From: Nostoc sp. T09
GTDB taxonomy: Bacteria; Cyanobacteriota; Cyanobacteriia; Cyanobacteriales; Nostocaceae
NCBI RefSeq assembly: GCF_002154695.1
Contig: NZ_MTAV01000054.1
Span: 1 to 59,040, forward strand
Length of the DNA stretch: 59,040 bases
Direction: 5' to 3'
Below the pieces are notes generated by a model. It made no database searches and was not told where the DNA came from. It was given only the letters and a program-made list of their open reading frames with translations. Both the position numbers and the translations under genes were made by a program. The stretch's first letter is position 1. Each line of letters starts with the position of its first letter. Below, piece after piece: positions 19,103 through 59,040 of the stretch.

Positions 19103-19141
19103 CATTTATTTTTAGGCTAAATCTAGGCTAAAAATACCGCG

Positions 19142-33744: not shown

Positions 33745-35091
33745 ATGTTGAGTCAATTACCGAATAGCATCACCAGCCCTTCTTGGTGGCAACTCATCAA
33801 TTGGATTGCCGATCCAATCGGATTTCAGCACAGATATAGCCAAAAGTATGGAGATATTTTTTCCATGCATCTTAGTGGAATCGGATCTTATGTAATCATT
33901 GGCAATCCCCAAGCCATTCAAGAAATTTTCAACCAAGATTCTAAATTTGATATCGGTCGTGGAAATGAACTTGCCAAGCCTCTTCTTGGGCAAAATTCTT
34001 TGATGTTAATGGATGGCGATCGCCATCGCAGAGAACGAAAATTGTTAATGCCTCCATTTCATGGAGAAAGATTACAAGATTACGCCAAACAAATCTGCTT
34101 AATTACCAAGCAAATCGCCAGCAAATGGCAAATCGGTCAACCATTTATCGTTCGGTCTGCTATGCAGAAAGTTAGCCTAGAGGTGATTTTACAAATTGTT
34201 TTTGGTTTAAGTGAAGGGGAACGTTATCAACAACTTAAACCCCTACTCACATCTTGGCTAGATATGACCGATTCTCCCCTACGTTCCAGTATGTTATTTT
34301 TGCGCTTCTTACAAAAAGATTGGGGAACGTTGACACCTTGGGGACGGATGAAACAAAGACAGCGGCAAGTTCATGATTTGCTACAAGCAGAAATTACTGA
34401 GAAAACAACAAAACAAGATGAGCAGCGTGGCAGTGATGTTTTAAGTTTGATGATGGCAGCGCGGGATGAAAATGGGCAAGCAATGAGCGATGAAGAATTA
34501 AGAGATGAACTGCTAACAATTTTATTTGCTGGACATGAAACCACTGCAACTACACTTGCTTGGGCTTTCTATCAAATTCATCAACATCCAGATGTCCTAG
34601 AAAAATTGCAGCATGAATTAGACAGCTTGGGCGAGAATCCCAACCCAATGGAAATTGCTCAACTTCCCTACTTAACAGCAGTCACCCAAGAAACACTGCG
34701 GATGTATCCAGTCATTCCAGGGCTGTTCCCACGCATCACCAAATCATCCATGAAGATTGCCGGATATCAGTTTGATGCAGAAACCACCTTCATGCCAAGT
34801 ATCTACCTCGTCCATTACCGAGAAGATTTGTATCCGAATGCTGAACAGTTTAAACCAGAACGTTTTCTGGGGCGGCACTATTCCGCTTCTGAATACCTAC
34901 CTTTTGGTGGCGGAAGTCGGCGGTGTTTGGGACATGCGTTAGCTCAATTAGAAATGAAATTAGTCCTGGCAACTGTTTTATCCAAGTATCAACTTTCCTT
35001 AGCGGAGAATAAACCTGTGAAAGTGCAACGTCGTGGGTTTACCCTTTCTCCAACGGGTGGTGTACGAATGGTGATGACTAGAAAACGTTGA
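33745..35091 (+). CDS. Cytochrome P450 (CYP110-like)
   Basis: 448-residue P450: I-helix oxygen motif [15 protein letters not shown]-helix [11 protein letters not shown], and the haem ligand in [17 protein letters not shown] (Cys near residue 394). No N-terminal anchor, as in soluble bacterial P450s. The CYP110 family is typical of heterocystous cyanobacteria and acts on fatty acids or terpenoids; a P450 is a known passenger of nifD elements. GAGGGGAAATG before ATG 33745 is a good ribosome-binding site. The substrate is not predictable here. Confidence 0.92.
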
Positions 35092-43630: not shown

Positions 43631-44839
43631 CTAGTGATGAGCCAGTGTTTGTTCCTGCGCTTGCAGCCAACCCGCTTCGTCATTTTTGAAGGGTGAAAGG
43701 GCACGCAAACGTTCTACAATCTCAGGCATAACCGCGATTACTTGATCGATTTCGGCGTCTGTGGTGTAGCGACAGAGGCTAAAGCGGATGGAACCGTGCA
43801 ATGTGGTGTAAGGTAAGCCCATTGCCCGCAATACGTGGGAAGGTTCCAAAGAGCCAGAGGTGCAAGCAGAACCAGATGAGGCACAGATACCGTATTTGTT
43901 CAACGAGAGTAAGATGGCTTCACCTTCAATATACTTGAAGCCGATGTTGGTGGTGTTTGGCAATCTCTGCGTAATATCGCCGTTAACTTCACAGTTAGGA
44001 ATCGTGGCGAGTAAGGTTTTTTCTAGGCGATCGCGCAGCCTTCTTTCTCTCTTAGTCGCCTCTTCTAAATGTAACATTTCCAGTTCCGCAGCTTTGCCTA
44101 AAGCAATAATTGCTGGAACATTTTCTGTACCTGCACGGCGTCCACGTTCTTGGTGTCCGCCAATCAGGAAGGGACGGAATCTCACCCCACGCCGCACATA
44201 CAAAGCGCCAATTCCTTTGGGTGCGTGGATCTTATGTCCGGATATGGTTAACATATCTACGGTGCTATTCTTCATATTTAAGGGAATTTTCCCTACTGCT
44301 TGCACCGCATCGACGTGGAATAAAGCGCCATGCTCTTTCACTCGCAATCCAATCTGCTCGATTGGGAAAACCACGCCGATTTCGTTGTTGGCATACATAA
44401 TTGTCACCAAGGCGGTGTTACCAGTCAAGGAAGCTTCTAGTTCATTTAGATCTATTTGTCCCTGACCATTTACCGAAAGATAGGTAACACTATAACCTTG
44501 GGTTTCTAATTGTTTGCAGACATTCAGTACTGCTGGGTGTTCGACTTGGGTAGTAATAATGTGTCGCTTGTCTGGTTGCGCCAACAGTGCGGCGCGAATT
44601 GCGGCGTTATCGCCTTCAGTTCCGCAACTGGTATAGATAATTTCCGATTCATCGGCTCCCAGAAGGGCTGCAAGTTGTTCTCTTGCTGTTTTCACCGCTT
44701 TGCCAACTTGCCCACCAAAGGTGTGCATACTAGAAGGGTTACCGTAATATTCAGTTAAGTAGGGCAACATCACCTCTACAACTTCCGGGTCTACCTTAGT
44801 GGTGGCATTATTATCGAGATAAATGCAGCTGTTTTGCAT
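43631..44839 (-). CDS. nifS: Cysteine desulfurase NifS
   Basis: PLP enzyme supplying sulphur to NifU. 402 residues from ATG 44839: MQNSCIYLDNNATTKVDPEV, YYGNPSSMHTFGG, PLP-Lys in TISGHKIHAPKGIGALYVRR, and active-site Cys in GICASSGSACTSGSLEPSHV. I choose 44839 because the family N terminus begins at xxIYLDNNATT and GGAAGC precedes it. It is transcribed with nifU 74 bp downstream. Upstream it should follow fdxN, which is cut by the element here, so transcription from a distal nifB promoter would be blocked until excision. Confidence 0.96.
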   Translation of the reverse strand: MQNSCIYLDNNATTKVDPEVVEVMLPYLTEYYGNPSSMHTFGGQVGKAVKTAREQLAALLGADESEIIYTSCGTEGDNAAIRAALLAQPDKRHIITTQVEHPAVLNVCKQLETQGYSVTYLSVNGQGQIDLNELEASLTGNTALVTIMYANNEIGVVFPIEQIGLRVKEHGALFHVDAVQAVGKIPLNMKNSTVDMLTISGHKIHAPKGIGALYVRRGVRFRPFLIGGHQERGRRAGTENVPAIIALGKAAELEMLHLEEATKRERRLRDRLEKTLLATIPNCEVNGDITQRLPNTTNIGFKYIEGEAILLSLNKYGICASSGSACTSGSLEPSHVLRAMGLPYTTLHGSIRFSLCRYTTDAEIDQVIAVMPEIVERLRALSPFKNDEAGWLQAQEQTLAHH

Positions 44840-44993
44840 TGCTTCCAATTTTGATGAGATAAGAGCCAAGATTTTGAGGTAATACCAATAATATGAAGTG
44901 TGAAGTCTGTAGGGCGTTCGTCGGAAGGTAGGATGAAGTCGTATAACTAGGCTTCATCCTAGGCTGCGGCAAGCATCCCAAAGGGCCTCTATA

Positions 44994-45059
44994 TTATGCT
45001 TTTGCTTCTATCACTTGGGGCTGACGCTTTTGCAACTGCTCAGAGAATTTCTGAGAATA
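44994..45059 (-). CDS. fdxN: fdxN 3' segment (last 21 codons)
   Basis: The minus strand from 45059 reads YSQKFSEQLQKRQPQVIEAK then Ala and TAA (44996-44994). It matches the C-terminal end of bacterial-type ferredoxin FdxN (YSQKFSEQLQKH... in Anabaena sp. PCC 7120). The Tyr codon is at TATTC, the core at which the PCC 7120 fdxN element recombines. The 5' part of fdxN and nifB are not in this window and should be at the far end of the element. Confidence 0.9.
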   Translation of the reverse strand, partial: YSQKFSEQLQKRQPQVIEAKA

Positions 45060-45110
45060 GAAGTATCTTCTATCAAACATAATGAAGGTTACGTCCATGC
45101 ACTGTTATCG
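45055..45110. repeat. fdxN-element end at fdxN (copy A of duplicated end)
   Basis: Begins with GAATA (TATTC on the nif strand) and continues GAAGTATCTTCTATCAAACA, TAATGAAGG. It contains a perfect dyad ATAGAAG-TAT-CTTCTAT at 45057-45073. It is 44/56 identical, without gaps, to 54266-54321, the sequence that precedes and reaches the xisF start codon. Here the ATG position is ATC and no recombinase follows. Confidence 0.85.
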
Positions 45111-45479
45111 CCCAAAAATCAAGGCATCTAGTGAATAATATCAGCTTCGCCTAAATACTTACGATAAGAGTGACGCAAAGATGGGGAGACACGGTGAACC
45201 AGCGCCTTGGGCTGAGCCGCTTTGCGGTAAGGAAGTCGGAATCTACAGCCCTTCGGGCATCCTTCGGCGGGCGGCTGTCGGCGAGTGACAGAACAGGGCT
45301 ATATTATGTAGCTTTTTTAGGGACTTCTATATCTCTGCACGCTTGTAAATACATCTTTCTCAGGATTAATGAAATTTTTGATTAGTTCTTTTAAAAAGAG
45401 ATAAAAGTCAGCAATTCTTAATACCAACTATTTGGTGTAAGCCAAAAAAGTTAAATTGCACAATCAGAAAAAACATCAA
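45111..45479. other. Non-coding gap inside the element end
   Basis: No gene is seen. 45170-45300 is GC-richer than its surroundings and contains dispersed repeat pieces (GCGGTAAGGAAGTCGGAATC; CCCTTCGGGCATCCTTCGGC). Downstream the DNA is AT-rich and leads into the dioxygenase gene. Confidence 0.5.
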
Positions 45480-46283
45480 ATGCTCAAGATAGACACATTA
45501 AAAATTAGCCTCCAACAGATCGAAGCTTTCGAGCGAGACGGCGTTATCTGTCTCAGAAATGTTTTAGATGAAAGTTGGGTGGAACGGATGCGAACAGCCG
45601 TTGACAAGAATGTATCAATCCCTGGGCCTCTAGAGGTGAAAGGTATCTCAAGACCAGAAGCTAGTGTGGAACATACTAGTAGCTTATGGCTTGTCGATCC
45701 TGATTTCCGTGCTTTGGTTTTTGAATCTCCACTCTCCACAATTGCTGCTCAACTCTTGCGATCGGAAAAACTTAACTTTTTGGCTGACGGTTTCTTTGTA
45801 AAAAAGCCGAAAGCGACGAGTCGTGTCGGATGGCATAACGACCTACCTTACTGGCCTATACAAGGCTGGCAGTTTTGTAAAATTTGGCTGGCTTTAGATA
45901 ATGTTAACGAAGAAAATGGTCGATTAGAGTACATCAAAGGTTCTCATCAATGGGGTAAAGAGTTACGTGAGGACTCTAATCCGTCGTGGTTTGTAGAGCC
46001 AGAGCCTCACGAACTTCTGTCTTGGGATATGGAGCCTGGAGATTGCTTAGTTCATCATCTTCTGACAATTCATCATTCAGTAACGAATATATCTTCCAGG
46101 CAAAGACGTGCAGTAGTGACGAATTGGACTGGCGATGATGTTACTTACTATCCGCGTCTGAAGGCGTGGCCTTTCAGACCTCTTGAGGAAATTGATCTAC
46201 CAGAATTTAATTCACTCAAAACTAAAAAAACTGGTGAGCAGATAGATTGCTATATGTTTCCTCCAATTCAACTACATCGCTAG
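45480..46283 (+). CDS. Phytanoyl-CoA dioxygenase-like Fe(II)/2OG oxygenase, possible MysH
   Basis: 267 residues from ATG 45480 (TTG 45456 is possible). PhyH fold with the facial triad WHNDLPYW (H-x-D) and a distal His in CLVHHLLTIHHSVTNIS, plus Arg in RRAVVTNW for 2-oxoglutarate. It lies 1.3 kb upstream of mysA on the same strand. A PhyH-type enzyme named MysH, from Nostoc, is reported to convert disubstituted mycosporine-like amino acids into palythines; I recall this and cannot verify identity here. By context this gene is a good mysH candidate, otherwise a general PhyH oxygenase. Confidence 0.75.
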   Translation: MLKIDTLKISLQQIEAFERDGVICLRNVLDESWVERMRTAVDKNVSIPGPLEVKGISRPEASVEHTSSLWLVDPDFRALVFESPLSTIAAQLLRSEKLNFLADGFFVKKPKATSRVGWHNDLPYWPIQGWQFCKIWLALDNVNEENGRLEYIKGSHQWGKELREDSNPSWFVEPEPHELLSWDMEPGDCLVHHLLTIHHSVTNISSRQRRAVVTNWTGDDVTYYPRLKAWPFRPLEEIDLPEFNSLKTKKTGEQIDCYMFPPIQLHR

Positions 46284-47596
46284 TAGGAAATCTCTACGAT
46301 TCAAGTACTAGCATGAAGTAAGCCTATTGTTTTAGACTGCCGAAGATGCTTTTTAAGATATGTCTGCTGTATAAAATATCTATCTTAAGGCAGACTTTAT
46401 TTGCAATTCTTTGTTACTCAGTACACTTCGGATGATGGATTGACTTGAATTGATTTGCATATGTTATGATTTGTAACACTGCTCTAATTTACTAACCAGT
46501 AAATTATTTGCTGGTTTAAGCTAAAAAGCTTAATTTAGAGCTAAAAAGCCAACTCAACCAAGTTAATTTATTGATTGAACGCACAGCTTTTAGTTAATAA
46601 ACTTAACCTTTGTTAACTAGTAACTCAGAATATATTTTAATTCGGAATTTTCGGGGTTACTGAGACAAGTAGGTTGAATACTGAGCATTAACTTAACTTA
46701 ATGGTAGCAGTACTCTACTGATATTATCAATAGAAGGTAGCAGTAATCTTCGTTTTTAACCATTTTATTGTTAGGGACTAATGCTAAAAAACAGCGAGTT
46801 GAGGATTAATGATGGCTGTAATCTCAAATGCCAGTTTGGAGATAGACAATATGAATAGTTTGCTAATACATAGGACTCCTATTTGATTATGCAAAGCTAG
46901 GTACAAGTCTATTTACTTCTTCCTGGTTCCCTACTTACGCAAGTAATTTCATCAATTAAATCGGATTACTATAAGAGTTTTAGAAACTCAAAATTTCGGC
47001 AAGTGGCTAGAGGAAAAAAAGTGGAGTTAATTAGAATGCAGGTAAAATTTTAAAAATTCCACTCTCATCCTGAGCAAAATAAAATGTAGCGATTAGCTAT
47101 AAAAGGTTTGATAGTAATGCTAAGAAAGACCGGACTTACCATTAATCAAGGTGCCAATCTCAAATTTAAGCTTGGAAACCAACGATACGAATTTTTTTCT
47201 AGAACAGAAGTTTTCCGAAATGGCACAATTGGTAAGCCACTAAAGTTAAACATGGTGGGATAGATCTGAACTCGGATGAATTTAACTCTCAATAAAGTCA
47301 ACAGTCCCCAAGAAGAGAAAGCATTATGGCGAGATATTGCTAGAGGGACAGTTGACTGATTTAGAGGTTCGGCTGAATGAAAGGTTAACCCACCTACAGA
47401 ATTTACTCAAATGAATGGTGTTGTTGAATAACAATGCCAAACACTAATACAAGTAAGCTTTTTTATTGAAAGCTTGTTTTGTGGTGCCTTTAATCTCAAA
47501 CGATAAAGAGCATTACTTGGTATTGCGTACATTAGGGTAAATCAGAATTATTACCGCAATCTCACAATTTTTTACTTTGAATAAAGGTCAACAAAC
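46284..47596. other. Long AT-rich gap upstream of mysA
   Basis: 1.3 kb without a recognised gene except a possible small frame at 47117-47263. It is AT-rich and contains several degraded short frames. It probably holds the mysABCD promoter; UV- or nitrogen-responsive sites cannot be recognised by eye. Confidence 0.5.
47117..47263 (+). CDS. Possible small protein or gene remnant (48 residues)
   Basis: ATG 47117 opens MLRKTGLTINQGANLKFKLG, then NQRYEFFSRTEVFRNGTIGK and a TAG at 47261-47263. The composition is protein-like, but there is no clear ribosome-binding site and other short frames follow in a different phase (MNLTLNKVNSPQEEKALWRD from 47277). It may be the remains of a longer gene broken by frameshifts. 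Confidence 0.35.
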   Translation: MLRKTGLTINQGANLKFKLGNQRYEFFSRTEVFRNGTIGKPLKLNMVG

Positions 47597-48826
47597 ATGA
47601 ATAACGTTCAAGCATCGTTTGCAGCGACAGAAACTGCCTTTCACGTACAAGGTTACGAAAAAATCGATTTTAGTCTTGTTTATGTGAATGGTGCATTTGA
47701 TATTAAAAACAGAGAAATTGCAGATAGCTATGCAAAATTTGGTCGCTGTTTAACTGTAATAGATGCCAATGTCTATGAACTTTACGGCAAGCAGATCCGG
47801 TCATATTTTAGGCATTATGGTATTGAACTAACAGTATTTCCGATCATCATTACTGAGCCAGCTAAAAGTCTTGCAACTTTTGAGAAAATTGTTGACGCTT
47901 TTGCAGACTTTGGCTTAGTTCGTAAAGAACCAGTCTTAGTTGTTGGTGGCGGTCTAATCACTGATGTGGCTGGGTTTGCTTGTGCTGCTTACCGTCGCAA
48001 GAGTAACTACATTCGCATTCCTACCACTTTGATTGGTTTAATCGATGCAGGTGTAGCAATTAAAGTAGCGGTGAATCACCGCAAGTTGAAAAATCGCTTG
48101 GGAGCATATCATGCACCTTTAAAAGTGATTCTGGATTTCTCATTTTTGAAAACCTTACCAACGGCTCAAGTTCGTAATGGGATGGCAGAGTTAGTGAAAA
48201 TTGCTGTAGTTGCTAACTCAGAAGTTTTTGAACTGCTATACGAATACGGCGAAGAATTGCTTGACACTCACTTTGGACATGTGAATGGAACAGCAAAAAT
48301 CAAAGACATTGCCCATAAAGTTAACTATGAAGCAATCAAAACTATGTTGGAGTTAGAGACTCCAAACTTACATGAAATAGACCTCGATCGCGTCATTGCT
48401 TACGGTCACACTTGGAGTCCTACCCTAGAATTAGCACCCCGTGTACCGCTATATCATGGTCACGCCGTCAATATAGATATGGCCTTGTCTGCAACCATTG
48501 CAGCACGACGCGGCTATATTCCCACAACAGAGCGCGATCGCATTCTGGACTTGATGAGTCGTATAGGTTTATCACTCGATCATCAACTCTTAGATGGGGA
48601 TTTACTCTGGTATGCTACCCAATCTATTAGCCTGACACGAGATGGCAAACAACGTGCAGCCATGCCTCGTCCTATTGGTGAGTGCTTCTTTGTCAACGAT
48701 TTGAAGCGTGAAGAACTAGTTGCTGCCTTATCTGAACACAAACTTCTTTGTGCTAAATACCCTCGTCGTGGGGAAGGTATTGACGCATACATTGAAACTC
48801 AAGAAGCGCAGCTATTAGGAGTATAA
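47597..48826 (+). CDS. mysA: Desmethyl-4-deoxygadusol synthase MysA
   Basis: First enzyme of mycosporine-like amino acid synthesis: cyclises sedoheptulose 7-phosphate to desmethyl-4-deoxygadusol. 409 residues of the sugar-phosphate cyclase (dehydroquinate-synthase-like) family: NAD-binding [18 protein letters not shown] near residue 115, metal-site region [20 protein letters not shown], and [12 protein letters not shown] with the metal His. The order mysA-mysB-mysC-mysD identifies the DDG branch rather than a valiolone pathway. The mysB start is 4 bp after its stop. Confidence 0.94.
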
Positions 48827-48830
48827 AGAT

Positions 48831-49664
48831 ATGACAAGTGTTGTACAACTCCCAACAGCTAGACCAATCACGCCACACAGCATCTTAGTAGCCCAGCTAC
48901 AACAAACCCTCAAATTAGCACAACAGCAAAACATTCCCGTAGAGATACTAGATTCTCTACGACAAACTGTGCAATTAGCTGCGGGTTTAGATCCCTACTT
49001 GGATGATTACACCACGCCAGAATCGAGCGCATTAGCTGCATTGGCGCAAAACACCATTAAAGAAGATTGGAGCAAACGCTTTAGTGATGGGGAAACAGTA
49101 CGCCAACTAGAGCAGGAAATGCTCTCTGGACATCTTGAAGGACAGACATTGAAAATGTTTGTTTACATGACCAAAGCCAAGCGCATTCTCGAAGTGGGAA
49201 TGTTTACAGGGTATTCAGCCTTGGCAATGGCAGAAGCATTACCCAGTGATGGACAACTCATAGCTTGCGAAGTAGATTCTTATGTTGCCCAATTTGCTCA
49301 AGCTTGCTTTGATGCATCTCCCGACGGCAACAAAATCATTGTCGAAGTAGCACCTGCTCTAGAGACACTATACAAGCTCGCAGCTAGAAAAGAATCATTT
49401 GATTTAATCTTCATTGATGCCGATAAAAAGGAGTATGTAGAGTACTTCCAAACCATTTTGGATAATAACTTGCTAGCTCTGGACGGGTTAATCTGCGTAG
49501 ATAACACTTTGTTGCAAGGACAAGTTTACCTACCACCAGAACAACGCACCGCTAACGGTGAAGCGATCGCTCAATTCAACTCTGTTGTCGCCGCCGATCC
49601 GCGTGTAGAGCAAGTTCTGTTACCCATCCGGGATGGTGTGACTTTGATTAGACGCATAGCGTAA
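48831..49664 (+). CDS. mysB: O-methyltransferase MysB
   Basis: Methylates desmethyl-4-deoxygadusol to 4-deoxygadusol with SAM. 277 residues of the class I (caffeoyl-CoA type) O-methyltransferase fold: ILEVGMFTGYSALAMAEALP (motif I) near residue 122, FDLIFIDADKKEYVEYF, and GLICVDNTLLQGQVY. The N terminus to about residue 70 is a helical lid. It starts 4 bp after mysA, so translation is probably coupled; an 18-bp tandem repeat separates it from mysC. Confidence 0.94.
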   Translation: MTSVVQLPTARPITPHSILVAQLQQTLKLAQQQNIPVEILDSLRQTVQLAAGLDPYLDDYTTPESSALAALAQNTIKEDWSKRFSDGETVRQLEQEMLSGHLEGQTLKMFVYMTKAKRILEVGMFTGYSALAMAEALPSDGQLIACEVDSYVAQFAQACFDASPDGNKIIVEVAPALETLYKLAARKESFDLIFIDADKKEYVEYFQTILDNNLLALDGLICVDNTLLQGQVYLPPEQRTANGEAIAQFNSVVAADPRVEQVLLPIRDGVTLIRRIA

Positions 49665-49724
49665 CCGAAAGATGAGGGGGATGAGGTAGATACAAGAGGA
49701 ATAACAATAGTTTGCTTACTTCTT

Positions 49725-49800
49725 CTACTCCCTCATCTCCCCCTGCTCCCCCATCTCCCCCTACTCCCTCATCTCCCCCTACTCCCTCATCTCCCCCTAC
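49725..49800. repeat. 18-bp tandem repeat between mysB and mysC
   Basis: Four units of CTACTCCCTCATCTCCCC, one with two changes, followed by a partial CTAC. It occupies most of the 148-bp gap. The transcript would be strongly C/U-rich without self-pairing, so it may matter for mRNA processing or as a slippage-prone spacer. Confidence 0.85.
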
Positions 49801-49812
49801 TTTCAAAGACTT

Positions 49813-51210
49813 ATGGCACAATCAATTTCTTTATCTCTGCCTGAATCTACAACGCCCTCAACGAGTGCCGGCGTAAAGATAGTGGCTCTATTCAAGACTC
49901 TCGGTACTCTGACATTATTACTCATAGCCTTGCCATTCAATGCTTTGATAGTGCTGATAGCTTTGCTGTGGGGAATTGTACGCCGTCCCTTTACCAAAAA
50001 AGCTGCCGTAGCTGCTCATCCTCAAACTATCTTGGTAAGTGGAGCCAAGATGACCAAAGCATTGCAACTTGCTCGCTCGTTCCATGCAGCTGGACACAGA
50101 GTTATTCTCATTGAAGGTCACAAATACTGGTTGTCTGGGCATAGATTTTCAAAAGCTGTGAGTCGTTTTTATACAGTTCCCGCACCTCAAAAAGACCCAG
50201 AAGGCTACATTCAGGCGTTAGTAGAAATTGTTAAAAAGGAAAAAGTTGACGTTTACGTACCTGTATGCAGCCCTGTAGCTAGTTACTACGACTCTTTAGC
50301 AAAGCCTGCACTATCAGAGTACTGCGAAGTTTTCCACTTCGATGCAGATATTACCAAGATGCTAGATGATAAATTTGCCTTTACCGATAAAGCGCGATCG
50401 CTTGGTTTATCTGTCCCCAAGTCGTTTAAAATTACAGACCCTCAACAAGTTATCAATTTTGATTTTAGTCAAGAAACCCGCAAATATATTCTTAAAAGTA
50501 TTGCTTACGATTCAGTTCGCCGCTTAGATTTAACTAAACTACCCTGCGACACCCCAGAAGAAACAGCCGCCTTTGTCAACAGTTTACCCATCAGTTCTGA
50601 AAATCCTTGGATTATGCAAGAGTTTATCCCTGGGAAAGAGTTCTGTACACATAGTACAGTCCGGGATGGGGAATTAAGATTGCATTGCTGTTGTAACTCT
50701 TCTGCATTTCAAATCAACTATGAAAACGTCGAAAATCCCCAAATCCGCGAATGGGTGCAACAGTTCGTCAAGAGTTTGCGACTGACTGGACAAGTTTCTT
50801 TTGACTTTATCCAAGCCGAAGACGGTACAGTTTATGCCATCGAATGCAATCCCCGTACCCATTCAGCAATTACCATGTTCTACAATCATCCTGGTGTTGC
50901 AGATGCTTATCTTGGTAAAACTCCCCTAGCTGCACCTTTAGAACCTCTAGCCAGTAGCAAGCCGACTTACTGGATATATCACGAAATTTGGCGCTTAACT
51001 GGTATTCGTTCCTGGAAACAATTGCAAACTTCGATTAATACCTTATTGCGAGGTACTGATGCGATATGTTGCCTTGATGACCCTGTGCCATTTTTGACTT
51101 TGCATCACTGGCAGATTCCCTTACTCTTACTCAAGAATCTACAACAACTCAAAGGCTGGGTAAAAATAGACTTCAACATTGGCAAACTGGTGGAATTAGG
51201 TGGCGATTAA
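49813..51210 (+). CDS. mysC: ATP-grasp ligase MysC (mycosporine-glycine synthase)
   Basis: Joins glycine to 4-deoxygadusol using ATP. 465 residues: a hydrophobic N-terminal segment (FKTLGTLTLLLIALPFNALI) that could anchor it at the membrane, then an ATP-grasp fold with LVSGAKMTKALQLARSFHAA, EFIPGKEFCTHSTVRDGE and metal-binding YAIECNPRTHSAITMFYN. It is the third gene of the mys operon, 36 bp ahead of mysD. Confidence 0.93.
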   Translation: MAQSISLSLPESTTPSTSAGVKIVALFKTLGTLTLLLIALPFNALIVLIALLWGIVRRPFTKKAAVAAHPQTILVSGAKMTKALQLARSFHAAGHRVILIEGHKYWLSGHRFSKAVSRFYTVPAPQKDPEGYIQALVEIVKKEKVDVYVPVCSPVASYYDSLAKPALSEYCEVFHFDADITKMLDDKFAFTDKARSLGLSVPKSFKITDPQQVINFDFSQETRKYILKSIAYDSVRRLDLTKLPCDTPEETAAFVNSLPISSENPWIMQEFIPGKEFCTHSTVRDGELRLHCCCNSSAFQINYENVENPQIREWVQQFVKSLRLTGQVSFDFIQAEDGTVYAIECNPRTHSAITMFYNHPGVADAYLGKTPLAAPLEPLASSKPTYWIYHEIWRLTGIRSWKQLQTSINTLLRGTDAICCLDDPVPFLTLHHWQIPLLLLKNLQQLKGWVKIDFNIGKLVELGGD

Positions 51211-51245
51211 AAAGCAAAAATTATACATAATTAAGAAATAGAATC

Positions 51246-52283
51246 ATGTCAGTACTGCGTATTCTTCATTTAGTTGGCTCTGCCTACAATGATTTTTACT
51301 GTGATTTGTCACGCCTTTACGCTCAAGATTGTTTAACAGCGACAGCAGAGCGATCGCGCTATGATTTTCTGATTGCATACATCACACCCGATCGCCACTG
51401 GCGATTTCCTGCTTCCCTGAGCAAAGAAGATATTGCGATCGCCAAACCGATGACTCTGGGTGATGCCATACAGTTTATTACAGCGCAAAACATTGACCTT
51501 GTCTTACCACAAATGTTTTGTATTCCCGGAATGACTCAGTATCGGGCTTTATTTGACCTGCTGAAGATACCTTACATCGGCAATACTTCAGATCTTATGG
51601 CAATAACAGCCCACAAAGCTAGAACCAAAGCCATTGTCGCAGCCGCAGGAGTGAAAGTGCCTCATGGAGAAATCCTCCGCCAAGGAGAGGTTCCGACAAT
51701 TCCACCTCCTGCGATCGTCAAACCCGTAAGTTCCGACAACTCTTTAGGAGTAGTCTTAGTTAAAGATGTGAGTGAATATGACGCTGCCTTAACGAAAGCA
51801 TTTGAATATGCTTCGGAGGTGATTGTAGAAGCATTCATCGAACTTGGCCGAGAAGTCAGATGTGGCATCTTCGTTAAAGATGGGGAGTTAGTAGGTTTAC
51901 CCCTAGAAGAGTATTTGGTAGACCCCCACGAAAGACCTATTCGCAGCTATGCTGATAAACTCCAACAAACAGACGATGGTAACTTGGGTTTCGCTGCTAA
52001 AGATAATAAAAAATCTTGGATTGTAGATCCTAGCGATCTGATTACCGAAAAGGTTCAGCAGGTGGCTAAGAAATGTCATCAGGCTTTAGGTTGTCGGCAC
52101 TATAGTTTGTTTGATTTCCGGATCGACCCCAAAGGACAACCTTGGTTTTTAGAAGCTGGCTTGTATTGTTCTTTTGCCCCTAAAAGTGTGATTTCCTCTA
52201 TGGCAAAAGCAGTCGGAATCCCTTTAAATGAGTTATTAACAATAGCTATCAATGAGGCTTTGAAAACTAATCAAAATTTATAA
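51246..52283 (+). CDS. mysD: D-Ala-D-Ala ligase-like MysD
   Basis: Condenses a second amino acid (Ser, Thr or other) with mycosporine-glycine to give shinorine or porphyra-334-type compounds. 345-residue ATP-grasp of the D-Ala-D-Ala ligase superfamily: VKPVSSDNSLGVVLVKDVSE, EAFIELGREVRCGIFVKDGE and FDFRIDPKGQPWFLEAGLYC. In place of MysD some strains have an NRPS-like MysE; this cluster has the MysD type. Product specificity cannot be read from sequence. Confidence 0.93.
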   Translation: MSVLRILHLVGSAYNDFYCDLSRLYAQDCLTATAERSRYDFLIAYITPDRHWRFPASLSKEDIAIAKPMTLGDAIQFITAQNIDLVLPQMFCIPGMTQYRALFDLLKIPYIGNTSDLMAITAHKARTKAIVAAAGVKVPHGEILRQGEVPTIPPPAIVKPVSSDNSLGVVLVKDVSEYDAALTKAFEYASEVIVEAFIELGREVRCGIFVKDGELVGLPLEEYLVDPHERPIRSYADKLQQTDDGNLGFAAKDNKKSWIVDPSDLITEKVQQVAKKCHQALGCRHYSLFDFRIDPKGQPWFLEAGLYCSFAPKSVISSMAKAVGIPLNELLTIAINEALKTNQNL

Positions 52284-52616
52284 AATCTCTAAGCTCGACT
52301 TTATCCAAAATTAAGAACTAGGCTTTCTTTACTCAGCAAAAACTTCTGTTTTTTGGTAAAAATAGCAGGCAACAGCCTTGTAAATCAATAGTTGTGTGTG
52401 TTTGACCGTAAGTTTATGTCCTAAACTATAGTTTAACTACTATACTTTTTTGATATCACTAATTCTCAAGCAAGCCCAACAACTCAAAGTAATGTCTACA
52501 AAAGTTTAATGGTTAGGTTTTAGGTTTCGTAAAAATGGATAAAGTCAAGCTTAGAAATATTTAAATTATTTAAGAGAAAGTTTAGTCTTACAGCATTAAA
52601 GATGGGTGCGATTTAA
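52284..52616. other. Gap after mysD
   Basis: No gene is seen; AT-rich. The tail ends of two convergent genes (mysD and the transporter) meet here, so it probably holds terminators, but no strong hairpin is visible. Confidence 0.4.
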
Positions 52617-53561
52617 CTAACAGCTAGATTCAAATCGTAAAAAGCGCCCAAGGTTGAGAGCAACCGATCCAAGTAAGAGTATAAATCCAGCCAATTGAGT
52701 TGGCACAATTGATTCATGAAGAATTGCCACGTTTAGCATGACGGAGAATAGCGGAGTTAGCAATGCGAGCATCGAACATATCTGTGTTGAGTTGAGATGC
52801 AATGCTTGATTCCAAAGTAGAGAAGCGATCGCGGTAGGAAACACTGCCAAATAGATAATACCAAGCCATTCAGTTATTGTTAATGTCCATGTCAACCCAA
52901 ATGCTGGTATTAAACCGAGCAAAAACAAAAAACCAAATCCGTTAAACAGAAACATACCTACAATTGAATCAAACTGTTTATGCTGAGTCAGCACGCAGAA
53001 AAAAGCCCAAGTGGCAGCCGCTATGAGTGTTACAGCAGTCCCAAGATTAAGCTGGATTCCCAGTAGTTGGTTTTGTGCAATCAACAAATATACTCCTATA
53101 AAACCGACAATTAGAAGTAGAATTGATTTGCGAGATAAGCGTTCATGAAACCAGAATGCTGCAAAGAGTGTCATCAAAAGTGGATATATATAAAATACCC
53201 CAACCACTTGTGAAGCAGGTAAAAGTTGATAAGCTTTAAAGCAGCAGATTTGCGGAATACCCAAACCCACAATTCCTGCAATTACGAAGAAAAATTGCTG
53301 CTTATTCCATTCTTTGCGTAGGATTTGTACTTTTTTTTGAACAACAATGTTGATACCGAGAATGCAAGTTGCCAAAAAAGTCACGTAGACTGACGTGGTG
53401 AAACTATCAAGATTTGGCACAGTCAATTTGAAAGTCACTCCCATTGTTGCCCAAATTAATATAGCAAACAATGCAGACACCAGACCTTTGAAACATAAAG
53501 CAGACTTTTTCAAGTTATAGACTGTCATACTCATTGACTCATTTATGTAAATTACTTTCAT
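52617..53561 (-). CDS. EamA/DMT-family transporter
   Basis: 314 residues, about ten membrane segments in two EamA halves (LVSALFAILIWATMGVTFKL; then LGTAVTLIAAATWAFFCVLT, and LNVAILHESIVPTQLAGFIL). Drug/metabolite-type permeases export amino acids and small metabolites. It is convergent with mysD and the only transporter near it, so export or exchange of mycosporine-like amino acids is a reasonable guess but unproven. Start ATG 53561; ATGs 27-30 nt downstream are alternatives. Confidence 0.85.
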   Translation of the reverse strand: MKVIYINESMSMTVYNLKKSALCFKGLVSALFAILIWATMGVTFKLTVPNLDSFTTSVYVTFLATCILGINIVVQKKVQILRKEWNKQQFFFVIAGIVGLGIPQICCFKAYQLLPASQVVGVFYIYPLLMTLFAAFWFHERLSRKSILLLIVGFIGVYLLIAQNQLLGIQLNLGTAVTLIAAATWAFFCVLTQHKQFDSIVGMFLFNGFGFLFLLGLIPAFGLTWTLTITEWLGIIYLAVFPTAIASLLWNQALHLNSTQICSMLALLTPLFSVMLNVAILHESIVPTQLAGFILLLGSVALNLGRFLRFESSC

Positions 53562-54190
53562 AAGTCAAGATTTAACAACAGTCAATAGTTTAAACATCTT
53601 CCTGAAACGTATAATCGAGTTTGGTCATCAATATTAACTCAATCTACGGTTATGTGATGAAAGGTAAACTCCTAACAAACACATTTTATAACCCTTATAT
53701 AGTGAGGCTTTTAACTAAACAATAAAAATGTGTTTTTTTATTTGTTGCGAGGAGGTTTTAATACTTTTGACTTCCCTTCTTGGGGCGCTTGTATCTTGCA
53801 CCTCTAGGGATAAATGGCTAATACAGAAACCAGAGGTCAAAAAAGTAACTTAAGAAGCAAGAAGTAATACTAGTTTAAAAAAAGAATGCGACAGATACAC
53901 ACTCCCAAAGCCCTGTTATATAAGGCTTTCTTAATTTTGAATTTTGTATACACCCGGAGGGTGGCTTGCCGTACTCCTACGGTGAACCCACAGGGTAGGG
54001 TATTTTGAATTGGTATAAATAGTTGGGCAAAATTAAAATTCTCCAAAACAATAATTAAATTGATTTGAAGAATTTATAGTGTAGAAGAGGTTAATTCATA
54101 GCCGTACTCTAACAATAATTTATAAAGATAACGGGTAAATATTGGGTAGAAATCGGGTAATTTCCTCAAGTATTGGTGGATATAAACTAG
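53562..54190. other. Gap upstream of the second element end
   Basis: No gene is seen. A dispersed repeat lies near 53948-54000 (GTATACACCCGGAGGGTGGC; CCCACAGGGTAGGGTATTTT). The rest is AT-rich. Confidence 0.5.
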
Positions 54191-54269
54191 TTAATGAATT
54201 TTTTCAATCAAATTATCAGCTCGCCCAAGCGCTTTCATAAACATTTGAGTATGGGAAATTTCATGGGAT
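54191..54269 (-). pseudogene. C-terminal gene fragment abutting the element end
   Basis: The minus strand reads SHEISHTQMFMKALGRADNL then IEKIH and TAA at 54193-54191. The segment EISHTQMFMKAL resembles a conserved helix of manganese catalase/ferritin-like proteins, though that match is from memory and short. It ends exactly at the copy B element end (TATCC core). It would be the chromosomal-side flank of an element that once sat in another gene, or chance; only about 25 codons can be read. Confidence 0.35.
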
Positions 54270-54321
54270 AGAAGTATTTGCTATCAAATATAATGAGGGT
54301 TGTGTCGATGCCTGGTTATGG
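54266..54321. repeat. Duplicated element end next to xisF (copy B)
   Basis: Begins GGATA (TATCC on the other strand) and continues GAAGTATTTGCTATCAAATA, TAATGAGGG to the xisF ATG. It is 44/56 identical to 45055-45110 and in the same orientation. The core dyad is imperfect here (GATAGAAG versus TTGCTATC). The xisF start codon is at 54318-54320 inside it. Confidence 0.85.
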
Positions 54322-55862
54322 AAAGTTGGGGTTACGCAAGAGTTAGCGGTGAGGAACAGCAAACAGATAAAGGTGCGTTGCGTAAACAAATAGAACGCTT
54401 GCAGAATGCTGGATGTTCAAAAGTATACTGGGATATTCAATCACGGACAACCGAAGTCAGGGAAGGGCTACAACAATTAATCAATGACTTGAAGACATCT
54501 GGAAAGGGTAAGGTAATATCTCTGCAATTTACCCGGATTGATCGTATTGGCTCATCATCACGTTTGTTTTATTCATTGTTGGAGGTATTGCGCTCCAAGG
54601 GGATTAAACTTATAGCTCTAGATCAAGGAGTAGATCCAGACAGCCTTGGCGGCGAATTAACAATTGATATGTTGCTTGCCGCTGCCAAATTTGAGGTCAG
54701 AATGGTGACGGAGAGGTTAAAGAGCGAACGTCGTCATCGGGTAGACCAAGGGAAAAGTCACCGAGTTGCCCCATTGGGATACCGTATCAACAAGGATAAA
54801 TATGTACGCGATAATTCACCATGCGTTTGCTTGTTGGCAGAACGAAGAGAACTAACTGTATCTGACGTAGCTCGATATATTTTTAATACTTTTTTTGAGT
54901 GTGGTTCAGTTGCTGCTACTGTTCGTAAGTTGCACTCAGATTTTGGTATAGAAACAAAAGCTTTTGATTGGAACAAGTCAGAAACAACTTCACGGATTAT
55001 CAGTGACGACGACTTAGATAAAATTGTATTTACACCAACTAAAACTAACCACCCCTTACGTTATCCGTGGTCTGGGTTGAGATGGTCAATTCCAGGCTTA
55101 AAAGCATTATTAGTAAACCCTGTTTATGCAGGAGGCTTGCCTTTTGATACTTACGTGAAATCAAAGGGAAAGCGCAAACACTTTGATGAGTGGAAGGTAA
55201 AATGGGGAACCCACGACGATGAGGCAATCATTACCTGTGCTGAACACGAACAAATAAAACAGATTATCCGAGGTAATCGCCATAACCGATGGGCTTCAAG
55301 AGAAGATAACGAAGTGAATCCATTTTCTAATTTAATCAAATGCGCTCATTGCTCCGGTTCAATGACACGCCATGCAAAACGGGTAAATAAGGATGGGCAA
55401 GCTATCTATTATTTTCAGTGCCGTTTGTATAAAGCTGGCAACTGTAGCAATAAAAATATGATTTCATCAAAAATATTAGACATCCAAGTAGTGGATTTAT
55501 TGGCGCAAGAAGCTGAACGGTTAGCGAACTTGGTAGAAACAGATGAGCCACCTATTGTAGAGGAACCCCCAGAAGTCAAAACTCTCCGCGCATCGCTGAA
55601 TAATCTGGAAACCTTGCCAGCAAGTTATGCAATCGAACAAATAAAAAATGACCTCAAAGAACAGATTGCGATCGCACTAGGAGCAATCAACAATGCATCC
55701 AGAGAATCCTTGATAGCTAAAGAACGTATCATACGAGCTTTTGCTAATAAAAGTTACTGGCAAGGACTTAATGCGCAAGATAAAAGAGCAATCCTTAATG
55801 GCTGCGTTAGAAAAATATGCGTAGATGGTAATTTCATTACAGCAATTGAGTTTCGTTACTAA
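54318..55862 (+). CDS. xisF: fdxN-element recombinase XisF (large serine recombinase)
   Basis: 514 residues from ATG 54318, the length known for XisF of PCC 7120. The N-terminal resolvase domain begins MESWGYARVSGEEQ with the nucleophile Ser10; the recombinase domain follows (LTVSDVARYIFNTFFECGSV), then the zinc-ribbon Cys set CAHCSGSMTR ... FQCRLYKAGNC and a C-terminal coiled coil. It excises the fdxN element in differentiating cells, helped by XisH and XisI in PCC 7120. Its start lies 48 bp inside an element-end repeat, so excision changes the sequence upstream of it. Confidence 0.95.
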   Translation: MESWGYARVSGEEQQTDKGALRKQIERLQNAGCSKVYWDIQSRTTEVREGLQQLINDLKTSGKGKVISLQFTRIDRIGSSSRLFYSLLEVLRSKGIKLIALDQGVDPDSLGGELTIDMLLAAAKFEVRMVTERLKSERRHRVDQGKSHRVAPLGYRINKDKYVRDNSPCVCLLAERRELTVSDVARYIFNTFFECGSVAATVRKLHSDFGIETKAFDWNKSETTSRIISDDDLDKIVFTPTKTNHPLRYPWSGLRWSIPGLKALLVNPVYAGGLPFDTYVKSKGKRKHFDEWKVKWGTHDDEAIITCAEHEQIKQIIRGNRHNRWASREDNEVNPFSNLIKCAHCSGSMTRHAKRVNKDGQAIYYFQCRLYKAGNCSNKNMISSKILDIQVVDLLAQEAERLANLVETDEPPIVEEPPEVKTLRASLNNLETLPASYAIEQIKNDLKEQIAIALGAINNASRESLIAKERIIRAFANKSYWQGLNAQDKRAILNGCVRKICVDGNFITAIEFRY

Positions 55863-56003
55863 ATGTCGCGATCGCACTGTTACATTGCAACCATGACAAA
55901 TCTTATGGGGTATTGCAGATATGGCAGAAAAGAGCGATCGCCTTGGGGAGAAAAACAACCTACCCTCCAAGCTAAAATCAAAACAAACTCGAAAAATCTT
56001 GCT

Positions 56004-56585
56004 ATGGTAGCCACCTCCCAACAACCGCAAAAAATGACCATAGAGGAATATCTTGCATGGGAACCCCAGCAAGACCTTCGCTACGAATACGTCAACGGCG
56101 AAGTTTTTGCGATGACAGGTGGTACAATTCCCCACAATGATATTGCACTTAATTTTTACAGAGCCTTATACCCACATTTACGTGCTAGAGATTGCCGAGT
56201 GAATGTGTCTGATGTGAAAGTGCAAGTTACGCCTCAAAGTCCTTACTATTATCCTGATGTTATCGTCAGCTGCGACCCTCAAGACCTCAATGCTCGCAAA
56301 TTTATTCAAAACCCAAAAATCATTGCCGAAGTTCTCTCCCCTGGTACAAGCAGTAAAGATAGGGGCGAAAAATTCACTAATTATCTGAAAATGCCTTCTT
56401 TACAAGAATATTTATTGATAGATTCCGAAACAATCTCCGTTGAACGCTACTGTCGCGGAGAGGGAAGAATGTGGCTTTACTACCCCTACACTGAGGGAGA
56501 TATTATTACCCTATCCAGCATCGAATTTGAATTTGCGATCGCACTACTGTATGAAGGGGTGGTATTGGGAACAGAAGCAGAATAG
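56004..56585 (+). CDS. Uma2-family (DUF820) putative nuclease-fold protein
   Basis: 193 residues from ATG 56004. Typical Uma2 sequence: MTIEEYLAWEPQQDLRYEYV near residue 10, EVFAMTGGTIPHNDIALNFY, YYYPDVIVSCDPQ (PD in the PD-(D/E)xK-like core), and ILAEVLSPGTSSKDRGEKF-type segment with the E-x-lSpsT pattern. Highly expanded in cyanobacteria, function unsettled; some are linked to mobile elements. It follows xisF by about 140 bp. A longer frame to 55863 overlaps the xisF stop but lacks family support. Confidence 0.88.
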   Translation: MVATSQQPQKMTIEEYLAWEPQQDLRYEYVNGEVFAMTGGTIPHNDIALNFYRALYPHLRARDCRVNVSDVKVQVTPQSPYYYPDVIVSCDPQDLNARKFIQNPKIIAEVLSPGTSSKDRGEKFTNYLKMPSLQEYLLIDSETISVERYCRGEGRMWLYYPYTEGDIITLSSIEFEFAIALLYEGVVLGTEAE

Positions 56586-56720
56586 AGTTTTTGACATCAA
56601 AAAACAGATTGTGATCGCCCACTGCAATGAGGGGAGTCTCATGAACAGAAGTGGTAGTATCAATGTGCTATAAAAAACTCAGAAGAAAAAAGTAACTTCA
56701 ACACAGGGAAATTCGTAAAA

Positions 56721-57185
56721 GTGAAAGAGGAAATAGAGAAAGCTAGCTCCAGTGAACCTAGTTTCCTCTTCCGTGCAGACGATGATTATAAAATAGGCGA
56801 TCCAGTAGGATTTGAGTTGGATAGTGAGGATGCCCAACAAGCCAAGATTCAAAATCCCTTGGAGCATATTTTAGATAAAGAAGCCGGGGATACTAGTATA
56901 TATGTATCTTTTTCCACTGCCATCAGAATAGATCGAGATAGGGGAGCGATAAAATTTACTAAAAAAAATAAAATTTTTAAAGTAGCTTGGTCGGCTCTTA
57001 AACAATTGGAAGCCGAAGGTAAAATTAAGATATATACCCCAGAGCAAGTAGCAGAAATTATTCGCCTAAATCCGCGAAAAAAAATCAGCAAACAAGCTAA
57101 CAACGTTAAAGCTGCTATGGAGAAAAATGGAGAAATTCTGATTGAAGGACAAATTCCGGGACAATTTATAGTTCCAGCTAAGTAA
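56721..57185 (+). CDS. Hypothetical protein, possible ART-like toxin domain
   Basis: 154 residues from GTG 56721. The C-terminal 95 residues run DTSIYVSFSTAIRIDRDRGA, IFKVAWSALKQLEAEGKIKI and end ILIEGQIPGQFIVPAK. This pattern (S-F-S strand, then a basic domain ending in a proline-rich strand) recalls toxin C-terminal domains with an ADP-ribosyltransferase-like fold, but no catalytic set is certain. A HEAT-repeat gene 22 bp downstream has the look of an immunity gene. The assignment is tentative. Confidence 0.5.
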   Translation: MKEEIEKASSSEPSFLFRADDDYKIGDPVGFELDSEDAQQAKIQNPLEHILDKEAGDTSIYVSFSTAIRIDRDRGAIKFTKKNKIFKVAWSALKQLEAEGKIKIYTPEQVAEIIRLNPRKKISKQANNVKAAMEKNGEILIEGQIPGQFIVPAK

Positions 57186-57207
57186 AATTAATAACAGAAA
57201 TACTGCT

Positions 57208-57804
57208 ATGGATGAACTACAGACAGCATTAGCTCAACTACGAAATCCCAACCCAGATATTCAAGAGGCAGGCCTAGATAAAATAGGAAATCTTCAACCT
57301 GACAATGCCTTTGAAATAATATTACCTTTTCTCTCCGACTCCAATCCAGAAATACGCTCAACAGCAGCTTGTAATTTAGGAGAAATTGATGATAGCCGTA
57401 GCATAGCGTATCTAATTGATTTAGCCAAAAATGACCCAGAAGAAAAAGTTCGTAGTGAAGCTCTATCTGCATTAGATAATTTTAGAACGCCGGAAATATT
57501 AATATGTTTAATTAATGAAGTTCATCGAGTAAAAAAATCACGAAGACCAAGACAAATAGTTGCACAGCAACTTCAGCATTATGATGATGAGAGTTCAGTT
57601 GATGCCTTGAGTCTTTTGCTACTTGAAGATGAAGATGTTTACGTGCGTATATTCGCTGCTGATTCTCTTTGGAAACTAAATCGTTCTAGATTGCTTAATG
57701 TTTGGCAAAAAGCTTTAGATGATGAAAACACTTACGTTATTGAAGTAGCAAATAAAGCAATCAGGAATTTAAAAAACTCCGAAGAATTGCTAGAAGCTGG
57801 CTAA
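57208..57804 (+). CDS. HEAT-repeat protein, possible immunity protein
   Basis: 198 residues of tandem HEAT/PBS-lyase-type repeats: NPDIQEAGLDKIGNLQ, NPEIRSTAACNLGEIDDSRS, EEKVRSEALSALDNF, DEDVYVRIFAADSLWKLNRS. No catalytic residues. HEAT-repeat proteins are frequent immunity partners of polymorphic toxins, and the gene starts 22 bp after the preceding frame on the same strand, suggesting an operon. It could equally be a phycobilisome-lyase-like repeat protein without toxin link. Confidence 0.8.
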   Translation: MDELQTALAQLRNPNPDIQEAGLDKIGNLQPDNAFEIILPFLSDSNPEIRSTAACNLGEIDDSRSIAYLIDLAKNDPEEKVRSEALSALDNFRTPEILICLINEVHRVKKSRRPRQIVAQQLQHYDDESSVDALSLLLLEDEDVYVRIFAADSLWKLNRSRLLNVWQKALDDENTYVIEVANKAIRNLKNSEELLEAG

Positions 57805-58371
57805 ATTATTAACTGAATGAAAAATAGGGGATGAAACGTGCGATCGCAATTACGATGGAGTGAAAATGCGATCGCCTTTGGGTGTACTTCATCATCAAAA
57901 CCAGTTTATCAAATATGCGATCGCAACGTGGATGTACCTATCGTTATTAGGCAGTTTTGTTTTTGGACTTTGTTTTTTGTTCTGGAATATCCGAGTTAGA
58001 TTTTAGCTCGGCTTTACGTTTTTCCCATTCCAGAACTGTGCGAATTACCACTTGTGACCAAGATTCGTAAGCCATAAGCACCGTTATTTGTTAATTTGAG
58101 AATAGCGAAAGTTGAAATTTTTTTTGTTCATCGCAAGCAATTGCTTGCGAGCAGAATGTTTGCAAAGAACAAAATGTTAGAAGTAGCTGAGATAGGGGAA
58201 CTGAAGAGATAACCACAGGACTACAGCACTTGAGATAGGGTAATGTGAAGTTTAATGGTAGAGGTAGTAGCGTTGCAGAAATTTTTCGAGGAGATGCAAC
58301 CCTGTTAAAGAATTAGATGTTACGTAGCGACTTCAAACAATTTGGTTATGAATTGTACTTGAGTAATTATA
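57805..58371. other. Gap with a small frame and HIP1 repeats
   Basis: Contains four or more GCGATCGC-type octamers near 57840-57925 and the short frame described separately at 57947-58075. Otherwise AT-rich, no gene or RNA recognised. Confidence 0.5.
57947..58075 (-). CDS. Small possible protein (42 residues)
   Basis: The minus strand from ATG 58075 reads MAYESWSQVVIRTVLEWEKR, then KAELKSNSDI and a Lys/Gln-rich end to TAA at 57949-57947. Amphipathic helix followed by a basic tail. No family recognised; plausible codon use but no partner gene. It may be a small basic protein or chance. Confidence 0.35.
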   Translation of the reverse strand: MAYESWSQVVIRTVLEWEKRKAELKSNSDIPEQKTKSKNKTA

Positions 58372-58752
58372 TTAATCAAGCGTTTCAGCCACAGTATAAG
58401 AAGACTTGAGGTTTTCTAACTCCTGAAAGCTCAAAGAACGCAATTCATCTGTTTGCTGCTTGACTATGCCTAAAAATTCCTTAAACTGAGGACATGATTG
58501 GCACTTTACCTGAGTTCCTGGGATTAAACATTCACACACAAACCTTGGTCTTTCTTTAAAAGTGCGATCGCAGTCATTACATACATATTTTTGTATTCCA
58601 TCAAGTCTACCAATTTTCACAAGCCGAGTGGAATTGCACCTGGGACATCCAAGACCATAAGTTTTAGGCTGTGGTTGCCATTCCTGTAGAGCTTGTTGCA
58701 TAGCAACTTCGCATCTAAGTTTATTGAAATCGAAAATTTTTTGAGTGTTCAT
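58372..58752 (-). CDS. Zinc-ribbon protein (IS1 InsA-like domain)
   Basis: 126 residues from ATG 58752. Central zinc ribbon GCPRCNSTRLVKIGRLDGIQ then YVCNDCDRTFKERPR, the IS1/InsA-type DNA-binding module, followed by a second cysteine group (CECLIPGTQVKCQSC). No transposase catalytic domain is attached, so it is not a complete IS. It lies 22 bp downstream of a recombinase C-terminal fragment on the same strand and could have been its accessory protein. Confidence 0.75.
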   Translation of the reverse strand: MNTQKIFDFNKLRCEVAMQQALQEWQPQPKTYGLGCPRCNSTRLVKIGRLDGIQKYVCNDCDRTFKERPRFVCECLIPGTQVKCQSCPQFKEFLGIVKQQTDELRSLSFQELENLKSSYTVAETLD

Positions 58753-58774
58753 AATGCCAAATTGGAATAAACCT

Positions 58775-58982
58775 TCAAATTTTGAGAGTAACTTCTTTAA
58801 CTTCTTTGTTCTGGACGGCGATCCTATGGACAATCTGCGGAAAAATTTTGACCTTATCATCAGGAGAAAGTGTGTGCCAGATTGCCAAGTTATTCCCTGC
58901 ACGAATAATTTCCTCCGTATTCTTATTCAAAATAGAATCAGAGATAAAAGGATTAATTTCTTCCTCAATTTGCTGACGAACC
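58775..58982 (-). pseudogene. C-terminal fragment of a serine recombinase
   Basis: The minus strand reads VRQQIEEEINPFISDSILNK, then WHTLSPDDKVKIFPQIVHRI and AVQNKEVKEVTLKI before TGA at 58777-58775. The pattern (L-s-x-x-D-K then I-x-x-I-x-V and a final strand) mirrors the C terminus of XisF (LNAQDKRAILNGCVRKICVD). The upstream part is cut off by an IS-like end at 58983, and an in-frame TAA follows just beyond. So it is a truncated recombinase gene. Confidence 0.65.
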
Positions 58983-59040
58983 TTAGAGGATGTTTGAAAA
59001 GTTGGAAGTTAAGTAAAAAAAGCTCTCAGGGCATAAGCTG
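58983..59040. mobile_element. Left end of an IS or MITE (continues outside)
   Basis: TTAGAGGATGTTTGAAAAGT: the first 12 bases after TTA match the terminal repeat of the 152-bp MITE at 29108 (GAGGATGTCTGA) with one change. Position and orientation fit insertion into the recombinase gene with a TTA target. The other end lies outside the window. Confidence 0.6.

Follow-up and report, generated by a model that had tools for sequence, protein, structure and literature searches.

The subject of this report is the fdxN element of the cyanobacterium Nostoc sp. T09, and in particular the cluster of ultraviolet (UV) sunscreen genes that lies inside it. The DNA that we analysed, hereafter the window, is 59,040 nucleotides long and is the entire contig C258 of a draft assembly with 270 contigs. 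In this window, a 9.2-kb island of sunscreen genes stands between the 3' part of fdxN and xisF, the gene of the large serine recombinase of the element, and a copy of the same site-like sequence is found at each end of the island. We consider it probable that these parts form a composite fdxN element, which would be bounded by an outer pair of sites matched in their GA dinucleotide, would hold the copy next to xisF as an internal scar made by XisF, and would be released as a single circle. A selectable trait, UV screening, would in this way be tied to a programmed DNA rearrangement, the host benefit of which is described as an open question in PMC4874684.

A split fdxN and two copies of its junction

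The two copies (Table 1) are ungapped direct repeats that are identical at 44 of 56 positions, exactly where the original prediction had placed them, and their cores also differ as it had reported, with GAATA in copy 1 and GGATA in copy 2. When both strands of the window are searched without gaps, copy 1 has no other match above 30/56 and copy 2 none above 31/56. The arm motif CTATCAAA is kept in both. Copy 1 adjoins the minus-strand fdxN at its 3' end (YSQKFSEQLQKRQPQVIEAKA*), with nifS and nifU coming next, and copy 2 continues into the start of xisF. It is extremely improbable that chance similarity or an assembly artefact produced this arrangement. The assembly is indeed a fragmented draft that divides the fdxN element over two contigs, but one contig spans the whole interval from nifS to xisF, and the same architecture with other cargo is found on an 8.5-Mb contig of a relative (G018). 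As for chance, the best match of copy 1 in 30 first-order Markov sequences of the window length (both strands) was only 28-35/56. We also rejected an ordinary genomic repeat, as an exact P' pattern, which is not exhaustive and fails to catch the two window copies as well as several relatives, occurs at 15 sites in 14 of the 217 family genomes, all of them fdxN/xisF loci.

The 5' half of fdxN is on another contig, C251, where it comes after nifB, ends in TATTC and is followed by a P arm with CTATCAAA. When the halves are joined at the TATTC core, FdxN is in frame and reads like the intact FdxN of another genome (G017). This is what defines an fdxN interruption element, together with the carriage of XisF, whose product here matches the corresponding NCBIfam profile (NF041201) with 519 bits for a cut-off of 375. 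The element covers positions 45060-59040 of the window (14.0 kb) and about 27 kb of C251 (~7.2-34.2 kb), so at least 41 kb plus an unsequenced gap; the order of C258 and C251 across this gap we infer from the gene order of two relatives, G013 and G018. What sets it apart is its layout. The usual position of xisF, directly at the fdxN 3' junction, is not a formal requirement of these elements, and here 9.2 kb intervene; since this separation is common to G018 only, we call it a composite variant.

This layout was compared in two sets of genomes. In a set of named loci with XisF, xisF is directly at the fdxN 3' end in 12 out of 12. The second set comprises the 217 genomes of the family, 65 of which have an XisF-like match at E<=1e-100 and 22 of which, our genome included, have a close xisF copy (>=84% identity). 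We judged the layout of the 21 other close-xisF genomes by eye from their upstream DNA, and fdxN 3' lies directly at the core before xisF in 20 of them, the exception being G018. The layout that the original prediction took as normal is indeed the rule, and its proposal of a capture at an XisF site holds in the sense that the island is an addition at this place. It had also suggested a search for mysABCD beside xisF in relatives. None was found: the 20 plain-layout genomes leave no room for mys genes between fdxN 3' and xisF, and the mysC match of G018 is ~0.6 Mb away, but the same slot of G018 does hold other cargo.

The relationships of the flanking and element genes suggest that xisF is the resident. 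Both xisF and nifS are closest to those of Mojavia pulchra (97% identity for both, in the set of 12 named loci), and for the fdxN-5' DNA the closest is that of G095 (Mojavia pulchra/G095; 94%, the best of 23 other genomes). As all three point to the same relative, xisF is probably native and the mys island is probably the newcomer. A search for mobile carriers of XisF gave two plasmid records at E<=1e-40, both 27% identical, and one pattern scan of viral contigs gave no relative, so neither result speaks for a plasmid or viral carrier of this XisF.

Compatibility of the sites

We placed the crossover dinucleotide of the XisF sites from the dyad formed by their P and P' arms. Read in the plus orientation, it is GA in 22/22 attL and in 22/22 fdxN-adjacent attR, including copy 1 of the window and the corresponding site of G018 (that of G207 was taken from the by-eye reading of its upstream DNA). 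The xisF-adjacent copies differ, with GG in the window and AC in G018. Serine integrases need complementary central dinucleotides, according to PMC4111918, and the central dinucleotide sets the polarity of the reaction, according to PMC3642061. Copy 1 and the fdxN 5' site look like a pair of large serine integrase sites, with GA in both and CTATCAAA in their arms. Copy 2 does not suit either copy 1 or attL as a partner, as GG then faces GA at the position deduced above. If so, the working pair would be copy 1 with the C251 site, and copy 2 would be inert. Because GG and AC depart from a GA that is the same everywhere else, separate loss of the island is unlikely, and the composite would rather leave as one. 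The GG dinucleotide of copy 2, together with its left half, which comes from a Mn-catalase gene (see below), leads us to see a dead scar in copy 2 and to take copy 1 for the site that is in use.

The original prediction had a different model, in which the 9.2-kb island is a cassette with two usable XisF sites that is excised alone or with the rest of the element. The extent of the direct repeat and the arm motif kept in both copies speak for it, but an autonomous integrative cassette needs two compatible flanking sites for its own excision, which the island lacks: the dinucleotide mismatch falls where complementarity is required (PMC4111918) and where all attL and fdxN-adjacent attR sites agree. 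Moreover, the right arm is of the same P' type in the two copies, and therefore they do not make an attL/attR pair. We thus regard this model as very unlikely. Excision of the island alone is disfavoured by the mismatch and by the non-arm left half of copy 2, while the island does lie within the DNA expected to be excised, as the other half of the claim had it. The original prediction had itself suggested that the one-base difference might block or slow recombination between the copies.

A Mn-catalase half in copy 2

Copy 2 is flanked on its left by part of a Mn-catalase gene, which breaks off at the core. Positions 54226-54274 match the Mn-catalase gene of a same-genus genome (G012) over 49 bp (90% identity, E 4.5e-11), and the same reading, EISHTQMFMKAL, is found in the catalase of our own genome on contig C94. 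When 40 bases on each side were compared with seven catalase loci, the agreement was 31-37/40 left of the core and 12-17/40 right of it. Two other sources of this flank, a decayed fdxN 3' end (which has weak similarity in a MAFFT alignment) and the P arm of the element itself, were rejected because the Mn-catalase match is far stronger. In G012, the catalase copy most similar to the fragment (18654-19361) is interrupted by a stop within the part that matches, and its N-terminal part is open over 126 aa. Further left, the intergenic stretch of the window has counterparts in G012 that lie 9-15 kb from a Mn-catalase gene. Positions 54029-54265 as a whole match two G012 stretches that are ~9.4 kb apart, so deletions too must have happened.

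The break in the catalase gene lies at a sequence that resembles attB. In the register of the junction, the catalase 20-mer agrees with the intact fdxN attB at 11-15 of 20 positions. We ranked it against all 20-mers at 1762 positions (450 bp on either side, both strands), with two references. The number of positions that score at least as well in the seven loci is 1, 5, 2, 2, 1, 18 and 1 with the G016 attB and 1, 1, 2, 1, 1, 11 and 1 with the G017 attB, which means that no other 20-mer in the range is as attB-like as the one at the break in 3/7 and 5/7 loci, respectively. For the catalase half that copy 2 lacks, the agreement is 8-10/14 positions with the fdxN-5' half and 4-6/14 with P', in 7/7 loci. 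The seven catalases are related, and therefore these are not seven independent tests. Copy 2 looks like a scar left by an off-target action of XisF.

A probable second composite in G018

The one other compared genome with a separated xisF, G018, has a fdxN3'-core-P' junction at 1449913 and a core-P'-xisF junction at 1465974 of its 8.5-Mb contig, with 16 kb between them. The cargo, as far as it was scanned, comprises a LysR gene, an EF-hand protein, two CrcB, two bestrophins, a pentapeptide protein and a 1482-aa globin/nitric-oxide synthase (NOS). Two genomes, ours and G018, thus have unrelated cargo in the same fdxN3'-xisF slot. As four same-genus genomes with close xisF (G012-G015) keep the plain layout, the two cases look independent; G018 looks like a second composite of separate origin, judged on layout. 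The NOS upstream regions of 16 stretches from our own and other genomes, some of them overlapping, do not reach the G018 junction. Our own genome has a NOS homologue elsewhere (C187:1627-5173), in two separate open frames, and it therefore looks broken.

A proposed history, and what weighs against it

We infer the following order of events. XisF would first have joined the P' end of the fdxN element to a pseudo-attB in a Mn-catalase gene. A later recombination would then have put the DNA left of that joint, including the sunscreen cluster, between fdxN 3' and xisF. The working copy 1 would have been retained all along, because the repair of fdxN, and with it nitrogen fixation, needs it. In differentiating heterocysts, XisF would recombine copy 1 with the fdxN 5' junction of C251 and restore fdxN, and the product released would be one circle that contains the mys island and the original element, with the copy 2 scar inside. 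The prediction is that the genes for mycosporine-like amino acids (MAA) quit the heterocyst chromosome in one circle of at least 41 kb, and not in a 9.2-kb circle. Heterocysts would then probably drop the sunscreen genes with the element, including the only mysC of the genome at E<=1e-100.

Several observations weigh against this history. The excision of the composite is a prediction from sequence only, the assembly leaves C258 and C251 unjoined, and the dinucleotide position depends on site symmetry. No match to XisH or XisI, the excision helpers, was found among 18 proteins of C251, 5 of the element in the window and 11 to the right of xisF in G018, in scans with Pfam and/or NCBIfam that did not cover shorter open reading frames or the contig gap. 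The catalase break ranks low in 2/7 loci with the G016 attB (5 and 18) and in 1/7 with the G017 attB (11). The fdxN-3' half (6-7/14) and the P half (5-7/14) are not told apart by the left half of copy 2, so the likeness to attB rests on the 20-mer rank and on the other half. True recognition of pseudo-sites by phiC31 integrase is called debatable, and their use rare, in PMC4111918. In G018, a 257-bp piece of the NOS 3' end (97% identity) starts ~52 bp past the copy 1 core, in reverse orientation relative to the full gene, and the left flank of copy 2 is untraceable beyond a common ~32 bp repeat.

The inverted NOS piece means that ordinary rearrangement is also indicated, which brings us to another route, in which XisF had no part in building the composite. 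Recombination that was illegitimate or assisted by homology, as after the uptake of DNA from a relative, would have inserted the cargo and made the catalase-P' joint at a short shared motif, GGnTAGnAG, and XisF would only remove the result in heterocysts. The short motifs that catalase and att core have in common and the deletions needed for the two distant G012 matches also suit this route. It has to explain, however, why the right junction lies at the deduced crossover core both in our genome and in G018, and why the absent catalase half is like fdxN-5' rather than P' in all seven loci, which does not follow from a micro-homology joint with P'. We hold this route to be rather unlikely, and keep the formation of copy 2 by XisF as our preferred reading.

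If it is correct, the off-target joining by XisF is a concrete route by which such elements could gain cargo. A generalization, namely that XisF occasionally integrates at look-alike sites in other genes, that fdxN elements in this way gather cargo between fdxN 3' and xisF, that this cargo (sunscreen synthesis here, nitric-oxide synthase and ion channels in G018) enters a developmental excision programme and that heterocysts thereby drop photoprotection or nitric-oxide genes which are kept in vegetative cells, is tentative and on present grounds somewhat doubtful.

Content and relatives of the sunscreen island

The island carries mysH, mysA, mysB, mysC, mysD and a gene of an EamA transporter, so that all the genes that the original prediction had listed are present by family profiles, and the PhyH-type gene, which it had offered as a possible mysH, matches solved MysH structures. 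With mysA-mysB-mysC-mysD in order and MysH beside them, it is a MAA cluster. Homologues of mysC at E<=1e-100 are found in 167 of the 217 family genomes. Both G016 and G013 have DNA colinear with the mysH-mysABCD block, which they match piecewise, at 72-93% identity, starting at 45343 or 45299 and ending at 52262 or 52314. The matching block is placed elsewhere in both, as G016 has no close xisF and the xisF of G013 is 5.3 Mb away on the same contig. The EamA transporter gave no tblastn match in 14 stretches around the mys clusters of relatives. A mysC homologue (92%) is also found at 395910-397166 of AP018319.1, a plasmid of Nostoc sp. HK-01 (484,721 bp) that is typed as mobilizable. Sunscreen genes can therefore be plasmid-borne in this family, and the mys cargo may have a plasmid origin.

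Table 1. Features of the composite element and its flank, in positions of the window
Feature	Position	Strand	Remarks
nifS, chromosomal flank downstream of fdxN	43631..44869	-	PF00266, E 1e-99
fdxN 3' part, core codons to stop	44994..45059	-	completes FdxN with the 5' part on C251
Copy 1: core GAATA + P' arm	45055..45110	+	working-type attR; deduced dinucleotide GA; CTATCAAA
mysH, Fe/2-oxoglutarate dioxygenase, PhyH family	45498..46283	+	PF05721; PDB MysH 9c9n and 9pze, E 3e-152
Gene between mysH and mysB (place of mysA in gene order)	47597..48826	+	PF01761; colinear in G016 and G013
mysB, O-methyltransferase	48831..49664	+	PF01596
mysC, ATP-grasp ligase	49813..51210	+	PF02655
mysD, D-Ala-D-Ala-ligase-like	51246..52283	+	PF07478
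EamA transporter	52617..53561	-	PF00892
Intergenic stretch like intergenic DNA of five same-genus genomes	54029..54219	+	71-81% identity, part or all
Mn-catalase gene fragment (EISHTQMFMKAL), ends at copy 2 core	54226..54267	-	40-base comparison with 7 catalase loci
Copy 2: core GGATA + P' arm	54266..54321	+	chimeric; deduced dinucleotide GG; predicted inactive
xisF, large serine recombinase of the fdxN element	54300..55862	+	mechanical open reading frame, 520 aa; ATG at 54318
Remaining fdxN element in the window: Uma2-family gene, HEAT-repeat-like protein, others	55863..59040	+	order as in G013 and G018; carries on to C251

Relation to known systems

The fdxN elements, which as a rule are excised when heterocysts form, and XisF are already known. 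The element described here is like those surveyed by Hilton, Meeks and Zehr in 2016 (PMC4874684) in the kind of core, in the carriage of xisF towards the fdxN-3' end and in the in-frame join. It differs from them in the 9.2-kb island that parts xisF from the junction and in the second, chimeric P' copy. Table 1 of that survey has 22 interrupted ortholog groups in heterocyst formers, with no catalase among them, and the words "catalase", "mycosporine" and "nested" are absent from its main text. Metabolic cargo between fdxN 3' and xisF likewise goes without mention there, supplements excluded. In the titles and abstracts covered by our literature searches, subscription papers being outside this coverage, we found no description of mys genes within an fdxN element.

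Beyond cyanobacteria, the closest likeness may be drawn with the composite staphylococcal cassette chromosome (SCC) islands, in which CcrAB or CcrC serine recombinases stack cargo at one chromosomal site and leave internal sites behind. The serine recombinase, the stacked cargo and the leftover internal site are shared traits, and XisF matches the NCBIfam CcrB profile weakly (E 1e-10, far under its cut-off); no Ccr gene was found among the element proteins scanned. Unlike in SCC, the removal of the fdxN composite would be developmental and terminal, and its internal site looks dead.

The nifD element with its cytochrome P450 gene (cyp110), described in PMC1079853, is likewise excised in heterocysts with metabolic cargo. 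It uses a tyrosine recombinase, unlike XisF, which is of the serine type. We know of no nifD element with cargo between copies of its site.

Other features of the element and the window

The rest of the fdxN element holds further genes. At ~10-30 kb of C251, we found a predicted FtsH-ternary/ubiquitin-like conflict system, with genes for fvmX1, X2, X7, bpMoxR, two FGE-sulfatase-type proteins and an AAA ATPase, as well as YukD-like/E2, CHAT-EAD1, Trypco2 and ThiF proteins, so a defence-like system may also be carried by the excised element. A second serine recombinase gene (C251:32890-34155), whose product shares ~30% identity with XisF, is directed towards the end of the contig, and G013 and G018 have a similar gene a few kb beyond their xisF. 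Elsewhere in the window, a nifD element lies in 17121-40690, with nitrogenase component genes on both sides, a tyrosine-recombinase-like gene at 19142-20560 and a cytochrome P450 gene at 33745-35091. Finally, genes for the small and large subunits of a hydrogenase are found at 1004-3652.

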